64,000 nt of DNA from NCBI GenBank assembly GCA_009760855.2, contig WPIO01000126.1, forward strand, positions 864,001 to 928,000. The letters run 5' to 3'. The stretch is from Cristatella mucedo (taxonomy: Eukaryota; Bryozoa; Phylactolaemata; Cristatellidae). A model generated the notes under the pieces. That model saw only the letters and a program-made list of their open reading frames with translations. It was not told where the DNA came from and did not search any database. Every line of letters begins with the position of its first letter. Position 1 is the first letter of the stretch. Of the stretch, positions 1 to 63,383 are shown piece after piece. The position numbers and the translations under genes are program-made.

Positions 1-701
1 GCCATTGTAATTCACTGCTAAAATGGGCGTGGCGTTTTTAGGACTCGTACCAGTGGTATTTCTGCCGCTCGGTGTCCCACTCCGTTCCACTTCCTGAGTG
101 GGAGAATCTAAGGACTTCGGTATTATGACAAAGACTGCCCATGCCAGAGCTATGCACAGATTCAGTATGAACAGCGACCGAAAAAAGGCGAAGTAAGACG
201 CCACGCCCGCACCGTAATTTCCTGCAACGTGAAATAAATAAATAAATGCACGATATAGCCATACAAAAGGCTCCTGTACTTTCACACAGAAACCCATGCA
301 AGCACCCAGAAACATTTCCCTGAGTCTTGAAGACAGCTTTTAGTACATTTATTTTTCTACGTCATAATAATATTGTATTAATTGCAAAGAAATTTGCAGA
401 AAGATCTCAGATGAAGGAAAAGAAATACAAAAAAACTGGCACGGCGTTAATTTAAAAAATACTTCGCGAATGATAGAGAACTTCGGCCACGCTAGAGCAA
501 ACAGAAATTGAAGACACGATGGAATATCCAATGAGTGCCGTACAGCTGAAGTTCAGGAAAGCCATTGGTTTACCTTCTATATTCTTTATCACGTTGCTCC
601 ACAGCTCCATTCTTCCGACCGCGGCGGCTAATTTTTGTCGCCACTTCTTCGTCGCCTGAAACGACCACAGTTTCGCGTGATTGCCCACTAAATCGATGCC
701 G

Positions 702-860
702 AGCTGGTTTGTTCTAGCGGTTAAGGTGCTCGCCACGACCAAGGTCTGACTGAGGTCGTGGGCTCGAGCCCCGAGGCATATGTGAAGCGCCTGAATAGAG
801 ATTAAGTTCTCTTGGGGCGCTATATAAATGAATTTTATATACATGTATATAAACGAATTA
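702..860 (+). mobile_element. SINE family A, full-length copy
   Basis: tRNA-like head with a B-box-like GGCTCGAGCCC. A tail follows with AGCGCC and GGCGCT arms around an AGAGA/TCTCT inner stem, then an AT-rich end. At least six other copies in the window share head and tail. Confidence 0.85.
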
Positions 861-3544: not shown

Positions 3545-3818
3545 AACCCATCTATGTATAACAGCATTTAGTGGATCCCTGTGATTCGTCCTTTACGTGC
3601 TTATGCGCTTAGACACTGATGCATGCTGCCACTAACCACACTTGCACGCTGACCCTGTGCCAGTCACCCCAAACCATGCTATTCTTGTCTTTATTGAGTA
3701 TGCTAACATTAACCATTCGATCGTGCTTCCTTTACAGCAAATGTAAAGTGCCTAGAAAGAGATTGAGTTCTCTGAGGGCGCTAAATCACATGTATTACTA
3801 TTATTATTACTATTAATG
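3545..3818 (+). mobile_element. LINE 3' end, main family
   Basis: Matches the 3' UTR of the 55846-57035 copy, with the AGCGCC-type stem-loop (one change) and an ATT-type tail. Confidence 0.8.
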
Positions 3819-5238: not shown

Positions 5239-5370
5239 TAATATAATTCGTTTTTATAGTGCCTCAAGAGAACTTAATCTATATTCAGGCGCTTCACATG
5301 TGCCTCAGGGCTCGAGCCCACAACCTCAGAAAGACCTTGGTCTGGGCGAGCACCTTAACCACTGGACCAT
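5239..5370 (-). mobile_element. SINE family A copy
   Basis: Antisense copy with the stem-loop tail at the left and the tRNA-like head at the right. It abuts LINE sequence at 5371, so it probably inserted into that LINE. Confidence 0.8.
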
Positions 5371-6330
5371 ATCTGATAGGTAGGCTGGAGCCAGAGAATG
5401 ACCTAAAATAGAGCTACAGAACTTTGAATTCAATACGCTGCTGGATTGGGAGCCAGTGCAGGTTGGTGAGAGTGGTGTGATGGGGAAACTGCGACACTCA
5501 TGACAGACAAGCCTAAAATGAGAGGTTTTCGCCAACAGTAAGCGCCTAGATGCATACGCTGGTAGCACCAGCAAGCACCGAGTAACAAAACTCGAGGCGG
5601 AATGTCACACTCAAGGACCAATTTTGATTTCGTAGCTTTTTCTAGGCAGGCCCAAGTTTTAGCAATCTTGCGTAGTTGAAAGTAGGCAGAATTGAACATG
5701 GTGCTGATGTGGTCTTCTAGTGAGTGGTCATTTTGGAACATGGTGCATAGATTTCGTGAGATGCTACAAGAGATACAGTGACCGCGCTGATTGTGAGTGT
5801 TAAGCATTCCAAATTATGTGCGACATTTGGTTATGCTCATAAACAGTACATTAGTTTTATGGTCTTTCAATTTGAGAATGTATGCTGCCATCCAAGTGCA
5901 GATGTTAGCAATGCATGCAGCTGGGGATTTGCAAGAGTTTGACGTGGGGGAGGGATCAAAGCGTAGATACAGCTTTGTGTCATCTACATAGAAGTGAAAG
6001 CCTAGATTTTGCTTGGCGATCATACCGGCCAGGGGGAGAGTATAAACTGTGACAAGAAGCGGACTTAGCACAGAACCCTGAGGTACCCCGTACTTTATTT
6101 GTTCTTTGTACAATCTTTGTCCATTTACATCAAACCTATTGAGTCTCCCACTGAGATAGAACCTAGACTATTGCAGGGCACTAGTGGCGATGCCCAGGTG
6201 AGATGAGAGGCACTTGAGAAGGACTTTGTGATCAATAGTATCAAACGCTGCAGGAAGATCACTTGAAGTAAGTAGAGAGACTTTACTTTAGTCTGCATTC
6301 CTGAGAAAGTTCGTATACGCTCGAGCAACG
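5371..6330 (-). mobile_element. LINE reverse transcriptase fragment, CR1/L2 type
   Basis: The minus strand carries RT motif A (DLPAAFDTIDHKVLL), then YGVPQGSVLSPLL and the catalytic box as YVDDTKLYL, in order but with frame breaks. This is the most 5' RT sequence seen for the main family. Confidence 0.85.

Positions 6331-12528: not shown

Positions 12529-12575
<47 letters not shown>
12529..12575. repeat. (TA)n microsatellite at a SINE 3' end
   Basis: About 23 TA units with one C interruption, contiguous with the SINE A tail at 12575. Confidence 0.95.
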
Positions 12576-12640
12576 ATTCATTTGTATAGCACCCTAAGAG
12601 AATCTCTATTCGGGCGCTGTACATATGCCACGGGACATGG
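12575..12640 (-). mobile_element. SINE family A tail fragment
   Basis: Only the stem-loop tail is clear. Its 3' end runs straight into the TA microsatellite at 12529-12575. Confidence 0.6.
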
Positions 12641-17677: not shown

Positions 17678-22100
<4,423 letters not shown>

Positions 22101-22824: not shown

Positions 22825-46547
<23,723 letters not shown>

Positions 46548-50625: not shown

Positions 50626-53600
50626 GTAAGAGGCCTATGCTAACGAGTTGAGGGTTTGTGTGCGATGAGTTGAGATTTCTTGAATTCCAGGAATCTAGTC
50701 AATGAAGATTAATTGTGCCGATTATGCACATATGGCTTTAGTAACGTAGGGGGTAGGCAGTGCATTTATTTATATATTTTTTATGTGTCAGCAGTTGTGG
50801 CACTATATACGACCTGATGTAATATGCATGCACTCACACTAGTGCAACTTTATGCCTGATCGTGCATATCTTCAATAGATGCTTGCATATGTGCTTGCAT
50901 GCTGGAAAGTAAACAGTGCAGCCAGTCTTGTACAATGTACTTAGGCCCATAGGTTGTCAGGGCATTTCACAATTATGAAGCCAAGATAAGATCTTCAAGG
51001 GAAGTTAGTCGTGATTGTTCGATGGCTGATCTCATCCAGGTTACTCGATAACTAGTTTTTTTATTGGGGCTATATGTAATTCACAATGAAGTTCTTAGCC
51101 ACTGGCTATTGTGAAGCTATAGACTCGCTCTAACAGACCAACCCAACCCAGAAACTGATCTAAGCTCACATCAACTGATCTTGAACTGTCGGAAGCTAGC
51201 CATGATCATTGTTCTCTCTGCCAATGCTTGTAGTAAACTGGAGTAACATTTACTATCAAGTGAAGATGGATGAGACAGAAATGCAATGCATAAGCAGTAT
51301 CACGAGTTCAGGCCACAGGGGTTGAAGCAGCCGGTGGTTAGTGCTGAGACCGTGAGTGTAGGGCAAAAATTCATCCCACAATAATTTATAACAATTATAA
51401 AAATCATAATAAGGATAAAATATTTGAATAACGCCCTGAGAGAACAAAGACTTTTTCTAGTCGCTTTAAATTAGCAGGAAAGGAAGCATGCCATTTGGTT
51501 AGGGATGGTACGCACAATTTAAGCTTGCATAAGTGCACAGGACAATTTACGAGGACCCAGCAAATACTGTGAGTAGTAGGTACGTTTTTCTAGCTTCTGT
51601 CAAATGTCTTCATGTCAGGAAATATCGTGACAGTCGTGAGTTCCAGGCTTAGAGGACTTACGAACTATTATTATAGAAGCAAATTTTCTAAAACTATACG
51701 ATGATAAAACTAACTTACTAGTTATGGGCAAACCCAGTGTGATTCAGAAATTGGAAAGGCTGACGCTCAAAATTGGCTCTGCCAGCATATCTCCTGTTAA
51801 ATCAGCTCGAAATCTAGGGGTCATGTTCCAAAGTGACCTCTCGTTAGACGACCAAATCAGCTCCACAGTCAAATCTGCCTAATTTCAGCTACATAACATT
51901 GCTAAAATTCGGGCTTGTTTAGATAAGGATACCACGTCTAAGTTGGCCCATGCGTTCGTGACATCCGTCTCGACTTCTGCAACTCACTGCTTACTGGCCT
52001 ACCGACATGTGCGATCAGGCGATTGCAGCTGGTGCAAAACTCCGAAGCTAGGCTTGTCTGTCGTGAGCGTCGCAGTTGCCACATCACACCACTTCTCGCC
52101 GACTGCACTGGCTACCAGTCAAACAACGGATCGACTTCAAGGTTTTGTCGCTCACTTTTAGGTCCCTTCATTCTTTGGCTCCAGCATGTCTTTCAGATAT
52201 ACTACCCCATCAGGCCAAGCATCGTACCACCCGCTTTTCGGAATCCAACAGTCTAGAAATACCTCGTACAAACCTGAAATCGTTTGGAGACCGTGCATTT
52301 AGTTCGTATGCTCCCAAAGCCTGGATCTCCCTCCCGACTTGCGTCAGAACATCCCCTGACTTGACCACATTTAAAAAGAACTTAAAAACACCTATTTAGG
52401 ACAGCACATAGTGAATCCCTGTGATTCGTCCTTAATGTGCTTATGCGTGCTGACACTGCGCATGCTGCCACTAACCACATTTGCATGCTGACCCTGTGCA
52501 TGTCATCCCAAACCATGTTATTCGTGTTGTTTGTTTATCAAGCATGATATTACTCACCATTGAATTGCATTTCCCCTTGCAGCAAATGTAAAGCGCCTAG
52601 AACAAGATTGAGTTCTCTGAGGGTGCTTTATCAAGTGCATTATTATTATTATTACCAACTAAAGGTGCGGTCTCCAAAGGTCAGTTAGAGGCTCAGCTAA
52701 ACGACTTAAGACAGGGGAGCAGATGGGACGATGGTGAGCCTGCCTAGGATGAACCTCATGTTGCTAGGCCAGAGCAAGAGATTGAAGGGACATAATAAGT
52801 GACAGAACCTTGAAGTTGATAAGCTGCTAGGTGGGAGATAACTGAGGAGCATTGAAACGTTCACGACAGACTGGCAGCAGGTGTTATTGCACAGGCACGA
52901 AGACTTGGTAATCATATGACAGAAGTCTAGATGGAGAGTTATAAATGCACGTGCCAGTTTGATGTGGCATGCCTATCTATTTCTGTGTAGCACCATGTTT
53001 ATCCACTACCAGTTTACAATGCAAATGAGTCATTGGTGTTTGCTGTGCAGCTCTTTGCATTCAGCTGCATTGCTGTGTCGAGATGGTTTGATCACATCAA
53101 TTGATACGGTTGGAGCTTTATGTTTTCAACAAAGGTAATTGTTTGTCAACAACTGTAACACCAGGATGTATTACATTACCGTATAGATGCTTCTGCGGGT
53201 ATGTGTACTTTAAGCAGGTTGTAATAATAATGATATAATGATAATAACTTGATAAAGCGCCCTCAGAGAACTTAATCTCGTTCTAGGCGCTTTACATTTG
53301 CTGCAAAGGGAAATGCAATTGAATGGTAAGTAAAATCATGCTTGAAAAACAAACACAATTAATAATATGGTTAGGGGTGACATGCACAGGGTCAGCATGC
53401 AAATGTGGTTAGTGGCAGCATGCACAGTGTCTGCACGCATAAGCACATGAAGGACGAATCACAGGGATCCACTATATCTTTCAGATATACTACCCCATCA
53501 GGCCAAGCATCGTACCACCCGCTTTTCGGAATCCAACAGTCTAGAAATACCTCGTACAAACCTTAAATCCTTTGGAGACCGTGCATTTAGTTCGTATGCT

Positions 53601-53928
53601 CCCACAGCCTGGAACTCCCTCCCGACCTGCGTCAGAACATCTACTGACCTGACCACATTTAAAAGGAACCTAAAAACACACCTATTTAGGACAGCATTTA
53701 GTGGGTCCCTGTGATTCGTCCCTGATGTGCTTATGCGTGCAGACACTGTGCATGCTGCCACTATCCACATTTGCATGCTGCCTCTGTGCATGTCACCCCT
53801 AACCATATTATTCATTTTGTTTGTTTTTCAAGCATGATTTTACTTACCATTCAATTGCATTTCACTTTACAGCAAATGTAAAGCGCCTAGGGAGAGATTA
53901 AGTTCTCTGAGGGCGCTTTATCAAGTGA

Positions 53929-53965
<37 letters not shown>

Positions 53966-56900
53966 GCTGTCCTAAATAGGTGTGTTTTTAAGTTCGTTTT
54001 AAATGTGGTCAGGTCAGGGGATGTTCTGACGCAGGTCGGGAGGGAGTTCCAGGCTTTGGGAGCATACGAACTAAATGCACGCCTAACTAAACGCAGTTGA
54101 ACGAATAACCTTGCGATGTCGACCTACTGCAGGCATTTCTCATTATTTATTTATTGTTCATTATCGTATCATTTATTGTTCACATACATTTTTTATGTTA
54201 CCTTCGTGTTCACTGTAGACTTCTCGGCAGTGATTGATTTCTGTGCACGTGTGCATCAAGTTGGTGGTTGTACCGTCATTACTGGAATGTAGCTCTATCA
54301 GCTGGTCCAGATTTACTGTTTGCTATCACTGGCTTGTACCTCAAGTTTGTTGATAATGGCCGATGCTGTTAATTCTATAGGAAAAATGCCAGCATTATAC
54401 CCGAAGCAGTGGGCCTGGTCGTATATTTCTACCCTGTCAGTTTTCGGTGTTCACACTGCCGCTGTTCTTCGCTAAGGGATTTCAGGCTTGTTGTTTGGTC
54501 GCTTCAGCGCTCGAAGTAAGGAGGGCGATACCGGTGTGAGAACAGGATTCCTCTATAACTTCACACACAGTGAGACTGTGGTTCGTCGGTGGGACAGATG
54601 TCAGGAGGACTTCTCCGAACTTCCCATTAGTGAGGAGGAGCTGGAGCGGTTTAGAACTTCCCGTGAAGAGCTCGACAGGTTCTGTGCACCCTATCCTCAC
54701 GAAGGGTACGTACTGTATGCCCAGAAGGTAGTTGATTGCGACTGTTGCAGTTCCCAGCTCACCTTGGCCATACTCTCGGTAAGAGGAGCTCCGATTTTTG
54801 CTGCACTGGCCTATTTACTGCTTTGTTTTACCAGTCTTGCTTCACGTTGAGGCAGCAGAGTGCAGTGGTGACAAGTGTACGACAAGTACGACTGGCCGTG
54901 CAAGTCGTACTTGGCATCGGCTCAGTTCTTGATATATCCAAGAAGTGATGGATAGACATACAGTGTTCTGCATAAATGAGCTGTCGCAACGTCATCTCTT
55001 TGACTAGGCGCCATTTAAAATAAAATCTTTCAAGTGTACCTGTTGCTGTCAGCCTTGGCTCCATTCGGGTGAACTGTCCTTTGTTTCCAATCAGAATAGG
55101 CCCGTATGTACCCCATCCCTCTGCTCTTGTGACTTTGGTCATTAAGCTGTGCCTGTAACCAATCTTAAATTTTTTTGGAGACCTTTCCTTTGGTTTGCAT
55201 GATCCCAAAGCTCGGAAGTAACTCCCGATTGACATCACGACATCCCCTGACTCGGCATTAAGAAAGAACTGAAAATGTACATTTTCTCTTACAGCTTTTG
55301 CTGTGTCTGTGTGAGTTGTCTCTCTGCGTGCTTATGCATGCTGACACGGTGCATGCTATCACTAATAAATTGGCATTTTTCCTTTACAGCATATGTAAAG
55401 GGCAAAGAAAGAAATTTGGTTCTCTTGTGGCATCATGCAAATGTCTTTCTATTATTTTTATAACTATTATTTGTATTCCCATGTCCTGAAATTGTATATG
55501 TTATAACTAATCAATTGATAGTATTTTCTTTCATAACATTTATTGTACCTATAAAGAGATTCGGTTCACTTGGGAGTGCTCTACAAATGTTTTAGTCGTA
55601 ATATTATTAACGGCACAATGCAAACCTACTTTGACTGTAAAGCGGTATGTAGTTGACACATAGCTGCCACTACCTCTGTGCATCCATCTCTCTCATGTCT
55701 ACTTTTTAAAGACTCTTTCAATATACATTAGACGATGACATACTATATCCTGGTTTGGCTCAGGGTAAGGTGCTTGCCTTCAATAATCAGGGTTGTGGAC
55801 TCGAACCCTGCTGGACATATAAGACGCCTAGATAGAGATTAGGCTCTGTGCTAGGTCCGGTCCTTTTCACCGTTTATACTCTCCCTCTCGCTGATGTGAT
55901 TGCCAAGCACAATCTAGGCTTTCACTTCTATGCGGATGACACTCAGTTGTACCTTTGCTTTGATCCCTCCCAGCCTTCGAGCACCTCAAATTCTCTCAAC
56001 TCACTTGCTGCATGCATTGATGACATCCGATCATGGATGGCAGCAAATTTTCTAAAACTAAACGATGATAAAACTAACTTACTAGTTATGGGCAAACCTA
56101 TTATTCAGAAATTGGAAAGGCTGACTTTCAAAATTGGCTCTGCCAGCATATCTCCAGTTGCATCAGCTCGAAATCTAGGTGTCATATTCCAAAGCGACCT
56201 CTCGTTAGACGACCACATCAGCTCCACAGTCAAATCAGCCTATTTTCAGCTTCATAACATTGCTAAAATTAGGGCTTGTTTAGATAAGGATACCACGTCC
56301 AAGTTGGTCCATGCATTCGTGACATCTCGTCTCGACTTCTGCAACTCACTGCTTACTGGCCTACCAGCATGTGCGATCAGGCGATTGCAGCTGGTGCAAA
56401 ACTCTGCAGCTAGGCTTGTCTGTCGTGAGCGTCGCAGTTGCCACATTACTCCACTTCTCGCCGACCTGCACTGGTTACCAGTCAAGCAACGGATTGACTT
56501 CAAGGTTTTGTCGCTCACTTTTAGGTCTCTTCATTCTATGGCTCCAGCCTATCTTTCAGAGATACTACCCCATCAGGCAAAGCATCGTACCACTCGCTTT
56601 TCGGAATCCAACAGTCTAGAAATACCTCGTACAAACCTTAAATCCTTTGGAGACCGTGCATTTAGCTCGTATGCTCCCACAGCCTGGAACTCCCTCCCGA
56701 CCTGCATCAGAACATCCCCTGACCTGACCACATTTAAAAGAAACTTAAAAACATACCTATTTAGGACAGCATTTAGTGGGTCCTTGTGATTCGTCCTCGA
56801 TGTGCTTATGCGTGCTGACACTGTTCATGCTGCCACTAACCACATTTGCATGCTGACCCAGTGCACGTAACCCCTAACCATGTTATTCATTTTGTTTGTT

Positions 56901-57427
56901 TTTCAAGCATGATTTTACTTACTATTCTATTGCGTATCACTTTGCAGCAAATGTAAAGCGCCTAGAAAGAGATTAAGTTCTCTGAGGGCGCTTTATCAAG
57001 TGCAATGTTATTATTATTATATTATTAAGGTCTGTTAGGGCAATATACAAATATTATTTTATTTATCTATTTCTTATAAATTTATGTCTGCTATGGGGAA
57101 TGTGTTTGTATCATTAGGAGTATATTGCTTGAGGTAATGCTGGGTAAGCACTTGATCGCCTGTGAGATATCTCATACGTTGTGTGCAGGTATGTGCTTAT
57201 GCCGAATAATGACCATTGTATTATACCATAGGCATATTGTATTGGTTAGAAGGAGAGGGAAGAGAGAGCGAATGAGTGAGAAAGAGAGAGACAGGATAGA
57301 GATACAGTGGGAAGGAAGAAGAATGACTGGTTTTGGTAGAGGAGAGGAGAGATAAGGAGTGAGAGCAGAGAAGTGAGAGCAGAGAAGGGGAAGCAAGAGA
57401 GAATGTGGGAAGCAAAATGACTGAGTT

Positions 57428-57522
<95 letters not shown>

Positions 57523-59441
57523 GGTAAAAAAGAGTGAGAGAGAGAACAAGGGAAAGAGAGATAGAATGGTAGCAAGACGAGTGACTACCACCACGTCGTG
57601 CATTTGTTCTGGGCTTGCTGGATCACGAGGACTAATTGTTCTCGGTATGTGAGCAACCACGGGCTTGGAGGCATTTCCTTGCAAAGCATGTTTGTTATGT
57701 GTTTCTTGTCTCGATGTTTGGCATAATTCATATCAAAATAAAGTAAATGGACATCCTTGTATAAGTGCAGAAGATGTCCTTCACGATGTGGGCTTGACTA
57801 TAGGTTGGCTTGGAGGCACTCACAATGCCATCTATGGTATGTGCAATTTCTCTGCTGTCTACTTTTGCTAGGTTTTCCGAGAATGTGCTCGGTGTGCTGT
57901 GGTTGGTAGCTCCTGTCCTCACGACGTCGAAATCGCCTGTGCATATGTGTAGTTGCAGTCCCCTGGTCTGTAGTAGTATACTCAAAGTATAAGTATAGTA
58001 TACTAGGCAAATGTGGAGGGAAAGGGCCAGCTCGGCTCTGGCGCCGATAAATCGATCGAACGGATCAATCGAATTGGGCCGCCAGACTGGTCTCTTCAAC
58101 CTTTTTATGTCATGTCGTGGTAGCATCAAGGCCTGGCCCTAGCTCTCTGGCATAATGTTTGCTCTGGCCATCCGGCTTAGATGAAGGCAAGAGTTAAGCT
58201 GCCGTAGAGAGATTGATACACCGTATGCAGTAAACGCAGGCAGGTAGCTGCCGTAATGCAAATGCAGCTAAGGTTAATTTAAGATCTGTCAGGTGCTCTT
58301 CAGCTCTACAGACGGTCGCCAGTCTTTTTCCTTTGGAAGGTAAGATATTGCACCGCCGTAGTCACATAGTCTGTATCGCGAGAATATCTTGGACACTTGA
58401 GGCACACGACTTTAAAAATCACTCTCATAACTTCGACTGACAGTTGTTGCATTCGTTTAACGAAGCTTTCGTAGAGGCAGGTTGTTTTCCTCATCTGCTA
58501 CGCTTTTGCTTCAGTTGGACGAAGAGCCCATTACGTTCATCGAGCCTGTTTGCATAAACCCTGCACACTCCTTAAAGCATGCAGCTCGTGTGCGTTCCAT
58601 GAGTTAAATGTCGATGCTTCACTGTCAGCAGTTACATTCACTTCAGATTGGCTTTCTGTCTCCTGGCAGTTATGACAAGTGGATCTCGCTGACGAACTAC
58701 ATGACAGCCGAGCTGGCGAAGCAGTTGCAGCCAATCAACGGCAGAATATCGTCGGCGACCATGCTCTCCTCGCCCGGCAGCACGACGGCCAGCCGCAGGA
58801 GAGACGCAGCGGAAGCTGCCGCTGCGGCCGCCGCAGCAGCTGCAGGCAGCTCGGCTGCGAGAGCGCAGGGCACCGGTGGCCTACCCGACATGGCGCCCTT
58901 GCCGGGCACCGCCATGCGCTTCACGCCGATACCGGGCCGGCGCGTGCCGGCCGGCGCCGCTCTGCCGGACGTGACGCGCTTCGGCATGGACGCGAGCTAC
59001 GTGCTGACGCAGCTGCTGCAGGCGTGCTCCGGTCGCTGGCCGGACGTGCTGGGCGAGATCCAGATGGCGTTCGTCTGCTTCCTCGTCGGCATGCAGTACG
59101 ACGCGTTCGAGCAGTGGAAGCGGCTGGTGCACGTGCTCTGCTCGTGCCAGGAGGCCGTGGCCGGCGCTGAGGAGCTGTACGACGGCTTCATTCGCGTGCT
59201 CCACTACCAGGTCCGCGAGGTGCCCGAGGACTTCTTCGTCGACATCGTGTCGTCGCACAACTTCCTGACGAGCAGCCTCGGCTCGTTCTTCAGAAATCTG
59301 GAGGACAGCGGCGCGAGCCAGGCGCTGAAAAGCCGCGGCTCGGCCTTCCAGAAGCATCTGACGGGCAAGTTCAAGTGGGACTTTCTCGGAGACTTGCCCG
59401 AAGATGCTCCAGTCGTCGTCGAGCTGGAAGGCGCCGGATGA
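50459..59441 (+). CDS. AAR2: AAR2 splicing factor homologue, three coding exons
   Basis: Exons 50459-50625, 54508-54705 and 58670-59441 join in frame to 378 residues (human 384). AAR2 binds the RNase H domain of PRPF8 and holds U5 snRNP in a precursor form. The N-terminal beta-rich domain reads [17 protein letters not shown] and GVKMIPPG. Exon 2 gives RTGFLYNF and the helical linker. Exon 3 begins [11 protein letters not shown] and carries the C-terminal helical domain ([62 protein letters not shown]). Exon 3 also has a Ser/Arg/Ala insertion with an uninterrupted ten-Ala run. The ATG directly follows a good splice acceptor (ctttccag), so a non-coding first exon is possible. Divergent from TBC1D23. 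Confidence 0.96.
51388..51671 (-). mobile_element. LINE copy, left part of an interrupted element
   Basis: Diverged tail, UTR and C-terminal coding up to the cgaacta block; continues at 52656 after an opposite-strand insertion. Confidence 0.75.
51672..52655 (+). mobile_element. LINE copy nested in an antisense LINE
   Basis: Begins within [11 protein letters not shown]-equivalent coding and runs to the stem-loop and ATT tail. About 1 kb, close to the 55846 copy but with frameshifts. Flanked by aacta on both sides. Confidence 0.88.
52656..52985 (-). mobile_element. LINE copy, right part of an interrupted element
   Basis: Resumes at aactaaaggtgcggtctcc and runs through coding for the IDFKVLSL region on the minus strand. 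Confidence 0.75.
53221..53473 (-). mobile_element. LINE copy, left part of an interrupted element
   Basis: AAT-type tail, stem-loop and 3' UTR, stopping in the gggatccactat block; continues at 53961. Confidence 0.8.
53474..53960 (+). mobile_element. LINE copy nested in an antisense LINE
   Basis: Begins in the [17 protein letters not shown] coding region and ends with the stem-loop and a long ATT run. Confidence 0.87.
53961..54082 (-). mobile_element. LINE copy, right part of an interrupted element
   Basis: Resumes with the block following the ccactaaatgctgtcc motif, in register with 53221-53473. Confidence 0.8.
54508..54705 (+). CDS. AAR2: AAR2 coding exon 2
   Basis: Starts after gcttcag; one base completes the Ser codon, then [18 protein letters not shown]. 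Ends FCAPYPHEG at donor gtacgt (54706). Phase 2 out. Confidence 0.94.
55030..55470 (+). mobile_element. Diverged LINE 3' fragment
   Basis: Recognisable ggagacc...gatcccaaagctcggaa block, UTR and a decayed stem-loop. In AAR2 intron 2. Confidence 0.6.
55750..55845 (+). mobile_element. Diverged SINE family A copy fused to a LINE
   Basis: tRNA-like head with B box GACTCGAACCC and the first half of the tail stem-loop, broken in mid-tail where LINE reverse transcriptase sequence begins. Confidence 0.65.
55846..57035 (+). mobile_element. Best-preserved LINE copy, CR1/L2-type RT C-terminal half
   Basis: An uninterrupted 313-codon frame (55848-56789, preceded by SVLGPVLF-like sequence) holds the catalytic box [10 protein letters not shown] at about residue 27. 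It continues through the thumb and C-terminal region ([38 protein letters not shown]) to a stop. A 3' UTR, the stem-loop near 56955-56995 and an ATT tail follow. The 5' end, endonuclease and motif A are missing, so it cannot move by itself. The intact frame suggests a recent insertion. In AAR2 intron 2. Confidence 0.92.
57428..57519. repeat. (GA)n microsatellite
   Basis: About 45 units with one GG break, in a purine-rich 350-bp stretch of AAR2 intron 2. Confidence 0.97.
58670..59441 (+). CDS. AAR2: AAR2 coding exon 3 and stop
   Basis: Acceptor cctggcag. The junction gives [12 protein letters not shown] as in human KKWISLTN. GC-rich compared with its flanks. The stop TGA at 59439-59441 shares its last base with AATAAA. 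Confidence 0.96.
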
Positions 59442-62766: not shown

Positions 62767-62904
62767 ATATAATTCATTTATATAGCGCCCCAAGAGAACT
62801 TAATCTCTATTCAGGCGCTTCACATATGCCTCGGGGCTCAAGCCCACGACCTCAGTCAGACCTTGGTCGGGGCGAGCACCTTAACCGCTAGACCAAACCA
62901 GCTC
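62767..62904 (-). mobile_element. SINE family A copy
   Basis: Near-consensus antisense copy, 0.5 kb upstream (in gene sense) of the TOP3B last exon and so probably intronic. Confidence 0.85.
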
Positions 62905-63383
62905 GAGGTCGCTTGCATCCAAAAGATGCACTTTGCTAAGCGTGGACAATTTATAAAGACAAGAAAGTACTCTTTGAGAGCCTCTGTCAAGGTGTGCAAG
63001 GCCAATCAAGCATACTGAAGACGACCCCTGGGCACATCATTTCACATGTAATTACTACATGAGAGCTCTTAAAGGTAAGGTGAAGTATTTACTGCTCGCT
63101 AGATAGGATTTCTTGCCCAATATAAGGTAATACGTGAAATATTATTCTTAATTTATTCAATTCCGGTATGTTTACAGGCTGGTTCAGCAGAGAACAGAAA
63201 TGCAAAGTTTGGTATTCAGGGAATTTGGCAGGAACTGACTGACCACTTAATTAAGCAACTGCTAGTTCTGCATGACAGACCTTTCGGAAGCAAGCAAGCC
63301 TCCCTATCAAGTATCCACACATTCCTTCCTCTATTACCTCGTTACCATACTGGCTTAAGCTCCCAGTTCCCAACCTTCAGCAG

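Follow-up and report, generated by a model that had tools for sequence, protein, structure and literature searches.

A LINE and a short element, SINE A, in the genome of Cristatella mucedo end in the same 3′ hairpin, and the reading that explains this best, which we hold with considerable confidence, is that of a stringent L2-type LINE with SINE A as its partner. The hairpin is very probably common to both because SINE A uses the copying enzyme of this LINE or of a close relative. Relatives of the two elements cover 22% of the window (the whole 64-kb stretch of DNA that was analysed), and the assembly that was searched comprises 572 Mb in 688 contigs.

The shared tail is 59 nt long, with outer arms AGCGCC/GGCGCT, inner arms AGAGA/TCTCT and the loop UUAAGU; as RNA it consists of an outer stem (AGCGCCU/GGGCGCU), a 4 × 2 internal loop, an inner stem (AGAGA/UCUCU) and the hexaloop, and the outer stem of the LINE is four pairs longer than that of SINE A. 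The reference LINE copy is young and 5′-truncated (55842–57027, plus strand); it holds the reverse transcriptase (RT) part of the ORF (RVT_1 match), the 3′ UTR, the tail and ATT repeats, and it starts at nucleotide 2024 of a 3.2-kb stretch from another copy, L045. Its tail occupies 56948–57006 on the plus strand (pattern and covariance model; folding z −3.24), where 56954–56963 pair with 56986–56995 in the outer stem and 56968–56972 with 56979–56983 in the inner stem, around the loop at 56973–56978. When the LINE was used as a query, 56941–56999 proved homologous to 770–828 in a SINE A copy (E = 2.2e-6), and the LINE tail at 56948–57006 can be aligned without gaps with the SINE A tail at 777–835 over 59 columns, so that the homology of arms and loop extends into the flanks. 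The hairpin pattern, allowing at most three mismatches, was matched nine times in the window and never in 100 dinucleotide shuffles. The initial annotation, which had proposed a common 3′ fold, is thus borne out on this point, and the idea that a common inverted repeat arose twice by chance or convergence, to which the shortness of the arms might lend some colour, is refuted by the shuffles and by homology over the whole 59 nt, and can practically be set aside. The loop had been called similar in the two families; this is true of the hexaloop, whereas the internal loops differ.

A covariance model trained on the copies of the hairpin tail found by pattern had 23 hits in the window at E < 0.001, of which 7 belong to SINE A, 13 have a LINE body upstream and 3 have neither. 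Further LINE tails lie at 53873–53931 (plus strand; identical hairpin type, z −3.85) and 53242–53300 (minus), both found by pattern and covariance model, and older copies lie at 3738–3796 (plus) and 28081–28144 (minus), likewise found by both, and at 52583–52641 (plus) and 27118–27176 (minus; arms AGCACC/GGTGCT), found by the covariance model. No match to the LINE body lies within 200 bp of the tails at 19734, 25757 and 30018; the first of these (19734–19792, minus strand; pattern and covariance model) is of the LINE type with the loop UUGAGU. Within 53225–54130, LINE copies nested in one another and oppositely oriented make up a long inverted repeat (53247–53477 versus 53696–53926, 94%). Host gene exons (TYW2, AAR2 and a rhodanese domain) are also present in the window, at 19815–20411, 58608–59441 and 31709–31993.

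SINE A is represented at full length at 699–838 (plus strand; folding and covariance model), with a tRNA-like head at about 699–775, a LINE-type tail at 777–838 and the hairpin at 786–821, and at 62767–62905 (minus; pattern, folding and homology search). Folding and homology search also support a copy with a weakened hairpin at 5242–5376 (minus) and one with a decayed hairpin at 18318–18453 (plus), and homology search alone identified older copies at 19321–19471 (plus; longer head) and 37886–38015 (plus); a tail without a head lies at 12572–12637 (minus; homology search and covariance model). An older SINE with a divergent head (55751–55848, plus; homology search) has its hairpin interrupted by the young LINE described above, the remainder being placed by eye at about 57028–57063, and the insertion is flanked by the duplication AGGCTCTG/AGGTCTG, also read by eye. 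In the reverse arrangement, a SINE A copy in L059 interrupts the tail hairpin of a LINE at almost the same position (by eye). A preference for nested insertion was considered and rejected, LINE or SINE DNA being present in the next 100 bp of 4 of 17 young LINEs against the 22% coverage of the window, which is no enrichment.

When six window copies were folded, the hairpin was the minimum-energy structure in four, with z scores of −3.2 to −4.0, and the stem energy amounts to −19 to −22 kcal/mol. The other two are decayed SINE copies (z −1.47 each), one of which (5245–5300) keeps a weakened hairpin and the other (18380–18460) adopts another fold. All four places for which the hairpin had originally been claimed do hold the element, but the one at 18390–18450 is decayed and folds otherwise, its arms at 18393–18451 reading AGCGTC/GGTGCT (outer) and AGAGC/TCTCT (inner). 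The hairpin is also better conserved than the UTR before it: in 30 older LINE copies compared with the young copy, identity amounts to 85% in the hairpin, 84% and 72% in the two halves of the preceding UTR and 80% at the end of the ORF, and the hairpin value is above the UTR mean in 27 copies and above that of the ORF end in 25. The compensatory changes in the arms that the initial annotation proposed as a check turned out to be weak. The 75 tails used were taken from 152 hairpin places after removal of 11 incomplete ones, 30 whose length was not 59, 31 identical ones and a further 5 (2 near-duplicates from a sister contig and the 3 weakest). Both sides had changed in 6 of 15 pairs and in 10 of 1125 cells, values reached in 46 and 16 of 500 shuffles, respectively, and the covariation score was also reached in 16. 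Slid pairings gave similar numbers of double changes, but their covariation score was lower and they left far fewer cells paired, and RNAalifold recovered just 4 pairs in the tail alignment. The paired changes can be CpG decay that mimics compensation, since the arms contain CpG. Because the arms offer no convincing compensatory changes, the fold of the tail rests on energy, conservation and precedent. Hairpins and flanks are near-identical on different contigs in L031/L032 and L034/L036, which are perhaps unmerged haplotypes.

The LINE encodes, in copy L045, an AP-type endonuclease (PF03372, E = 6e-13) and a reverse transcriptase (PF00078, E = 1e-31), the two pieces having been searched separately and the ORF disruption between them left as is. 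The solved structures closest to the protein are L1 ORF2 proteins, followed by R2, with no other LINEs among the PDB matches; a PDB search with the ORF of the window returned nothing useful. Between endonuclease and RT, the segment LWFTTDIKLTRSTKRKLEKAYKR is basic at all six positions (R376, K379, R383, R387, K390 and K391) that characterize the tail-binding region of zebrafish ZfL2-1 (PMC4176376). This six-of-six pattern occurs in one of the 663 23-aa windows of the L045 RT ORF, the next best having four, and it was also present in both of the long-ORF LINE copies that were read. The equivalents of W325 and E341 are kept, whereas P324 and W344, two residues conserved in the tail-binding regions of L2 elements, are replaced by L and Y; a strict search for the PW...W motif therefore gave no match, the LINE reading LW...Y at that place. 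These replacements count against the preferred reading; W344A abolished binding in ZfL2-2 (PMC4176376).

A genome search with the tail-binding segment gave 13,080 first-look candidates. Of the 150 that were scored, 111 shared one identical score and 11 lay in open frames of at least 1,000 aa. Eleven LINE copies, picked for open frames of 870–1085 aa, were fetched, and all of them end in ATT repeats; the consensus hairpin is intact in 10 and has a single 3′-arm change in the other, and the mean divergence among the 11 3′ ends is 0.7%. Because copies with long ORFs keep the consensus hairpin and the ATT repeats, and because most of the scored matches share one score, the LINE is young and, to judge from its sequences, probably active. 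Young copies begin at 16 different 5′ start points and have one common 3′ end with ATT repeats (16/16). Among LINE-body matches with downstream DNA, 59 of 73 are followed by a hairpin match; of the other 14, 12 cover the 240-base body query no further than position 227, whereas the remaining 2 reach positions 234 and 235 and are followed by a decayed hairpin of 56–65% identity. On one contig (G000:C497, 1350421–1358518), three LINE matches in the same orientation lie about 3.8–4.0 kb apart and may form a head-to-tail array. A second LINE-like family (L042, 219–277 and 1245–1301; L049, 3102–3164) has another 3′ UTR and the same hairpin, two of these three tails having the loop UUCAGU.

Target-site duplications (TSDs) are short in both elements. 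For 16 LINE copies the mean is 4.38 nt, compared with 2.97 ± 0.36 nt in shuffled flanks, and was reached by none of 1000 shuffles; for 20 SINE copies it is 3.85 nt, compared with 3.15 ± 0.31 nt, and was reached by 12 of 1000. In a looser test on 25 SINEs, the observed value was reached by 4 of 500 shuffles. SINE duplications of at least 4 nt number 10 of 20 against 6.5 expected (53 of 1000 shuffles), which is not significant by itself. The duplications of the L2 clade are reported to peak at 3–5 bp, those of L1 at 13–15 bp and those of RTE at 10–12 bp (PMC4245944). The LINE is called L2-type here because of its short TSDs and its tail-binding motif.

SINE A is also young. A search with 140 bp yielded 992 first-look candidates, of which 40 were scored and found to be 96–100% identical; 20 of these were fetched, and the mean divergence among 21 copies, chosen as closest matches, is 1.4%. 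Scored against the usual consensus of the Pol III boxes, the head in L056 (about 77 nt) matches box A exactly and box B at 6 of 7 positions, and the head of the window copy at 699 has no exact box A and a box B match of 6/7. ARAGORN reported no tRNAs in the window, and a search of Rfam up to E 10 gave no tRNA match for the SINE. SINE heads are regularly followed by the hairpin: a head-only query on the fetched DNA, which consists mostly of LINE surroundings and is thus a non-random sample of the genome, found it behind 37 of 38 heads. For the 18 heads fetched without the hairpin in the query, likewise mostly from around LINEs, the figure was 17 (one being the query copy itself), a sample that bears on the genome-wide refuting condition of the initial annotation; the lone exception, in L047, continues without a hairpin.

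The terminal repeats were only partly as initially described. The ATT repeats of the LINE were confirmed, whereas SINE A ends not just in AT or TA repeats but in a mixture of (TTTA)n, (ATT)n, T runs and TA. In the SINE copies L055–L074 and window copy 699, two head variants, with and without GCCACGACC, are linked to the ends GAATTAT and GAATTTT, and GAATTTT creates a T4 run that resembles a Pol III stop. The association of tail type with head variant (3/4 against 1/17, Fisher p 0.012) points to inheritance of the A/T tail types from source copies, and disfavours their de novo origin from a Pol III U-tract.

The clearest difference between the two tails lies in the internal loop. Tails were sorted by the upstream SINE head or LINE body and not by the best hairpin model. 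Behind a LINE body the internal loop reads AGAA or AGAG/GA in 43 of 52 tails and GAAT/TG in none, whereas behind a SINE head it reads GAAT/TG in 26 of 31 and AGA[AG]/GA in none, 19 of these 31 tails having been fetched as close matches of one SINE. SINE A may therefore have taken its tail from this LINE group long ago and now depend for its copying on a sister LINE lineage whose internal loop is SINE-like, in which case the young LINE would be a cousin and not the driver. This variant of the main reading, to which we give a minority chance, is favoured by the fact that internal loops were never exchanged between the 52 LINE-anchored and 31 SINE-anchored tails, by the resemblance of the SINE 3′ end CTATACAAATGAATT to older LINE tails, CTATACAAATGTATT, and by the coexistence of several hairpin-bearing LINE lineages with the loops UUAAGU, UUGAGU and UUCAGU. 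It is opposed by the lack of a GAAT/TG loop in any of the 52 LINE-anchored tails examined and by the apical loop UUAAGU, which SINE A has in common with the young LINE and which corresponds to the part that confers specificity in zebrafish L2 LINEs (PMC4176376). In the 3′ flank of L078, an inverted tail with a SINE-like CTCTTAGG internal side lies beside a LINE, possibly from a sister LINE lineage.

The other way to account for the differences in internal loop and 3′ repeats is that the LINE protein ignores these parts, and we prefer it because the zebrafish data favour loop-specific recognition. It is conceivable, though doubtful in this full form, that one LINE protein mobilizes both elements through the inner stem and the UUAAGU loop while tolerating a different 4 × 2 internal loop and different 3′ repeats, and that the lineages with UUAAGU, UUGAGU and UUCAGU form a series along which the loop and the tail-binding region evolved in concert, as has been proposed from the zebrafish work (PMC4176376). 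Free tolerance of the stem is, however, at odds with UnaL2, which needs a bulge in its stem (PMC4176376). The LINE loop has shifted from UUGAGU in many older copies to UUAAGU in the young ones, and SINE A has UUAAGU in 20 of 25 younger but 3 of 8 older ungapped copies; these are too few to support a joint switch, and the idea was dropped.

According to the preferred reading, of a LINE and SINE A served by the same or a closely related enzyme, the LINE protein, with its AP-type endonuclease, basic tail-binding region and RT, would recognize the hairpin at the 3′ end of its own RNA, and target-primed reverse transcription would begin just past the hairpin, leaving the ATT repeats. SINE A would be a short element, probably transcribed by Pol III, whose head is tRNA-like and whose 3′ 60 nt descend from such a LINE; it would present the identical inner stem and UUAAGU loop and so be copied by the LINE protein. 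Binding of the hairpin by this protein is expected by analogy with zebrafish and eel work, and we infer both the trans-mobilization of SINE A and the identity of the LINE lineage that is its present partner. The earlier proposal of an autonomous/non-autonomous pair with an RT-recognized tail is supported by the shared tail, the endonuclease and RT, the tail-binding motif, the short TSDs, the variable 5′ and fixed 3′ ends and the youth of the elements. A role of the hairpin in 3′-end formation, RNA stability or export, for which SINE A would have kept it, appears improbable. LINEs and SINEs are expected to use different polymerases, and in the insertions the hairpin marks the fixed 3′ end, with repeats and short TSDs behind it, both of which count against such a role, even though the stem is stable and a sequence does not name its binding partner. 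In L2 LINEs, moreover, the hairpin is bound by the LINE protein (PMC4176376).

Partnerships of this type are already established, and eel, carp and plants are among the organisms in which a SINE and a LINE are known to end in a common stem-loop (PMC4176376, PMC2653535, PMC3747384). The closest parallels to the protein are zebrafish ZfL2-1 and ZfL2-2, which have an endonuclease, an RT, a 3′ stem-loop and a tail-binding region, with the six basic positions as in ZfL2-1 (PMC4176376); the tail-binding region of ZfL2-1 binds the stem-loop of the tail, mutation there stops retrotransposition (PMC4176376), and its TSDs are short (PMC4245944). The LINE described here differs from both in having L and Y at the equivalents of P324 and W344. 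The pair as a whole resembles HAmo SINE/HAmoL2 of carp and UnaL2/UnaSINE1 of eel, in which a tRNA-derived SINE and an L2 LINE have the same 3′ stem-loop, with short tandem repeats after it; a slippage model has been put forward for the HAmo type (PMC2653535). That type has the loop GGAUA and the repeat TAAATG, whereas here the loop is UUAAGU (UUGAGU in many older LINE copies), and the repeat is ATT in the LINE and mixed A/T in the SINE. A search of Rfam up to E 10, which presumably holds the UnaL2 family, gave no UnaL2 match, and the sub-threshold matches to other families were not useful. Searches of open-licence literature, PMC10294476 and PMC6887750 among it, turned up no account of this pair; since many relevant papers lie outside that literature, no priority is claimed. 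Since both partners are young and numerous, and long LINE frames and several lineages with small changes in the loop are found in one genome, co-evolution of the RNA loop and the tail-binding region can be tested by sequence comparison, and in this lies the value of the pair. From stringent LINE/SINE pairs in general, where a LINE dependent on its own 3′ end has supplied the 3′ end of the SINE (PMC3747384), it shows no basic difference, and it is a further member of this group, young and numerous.
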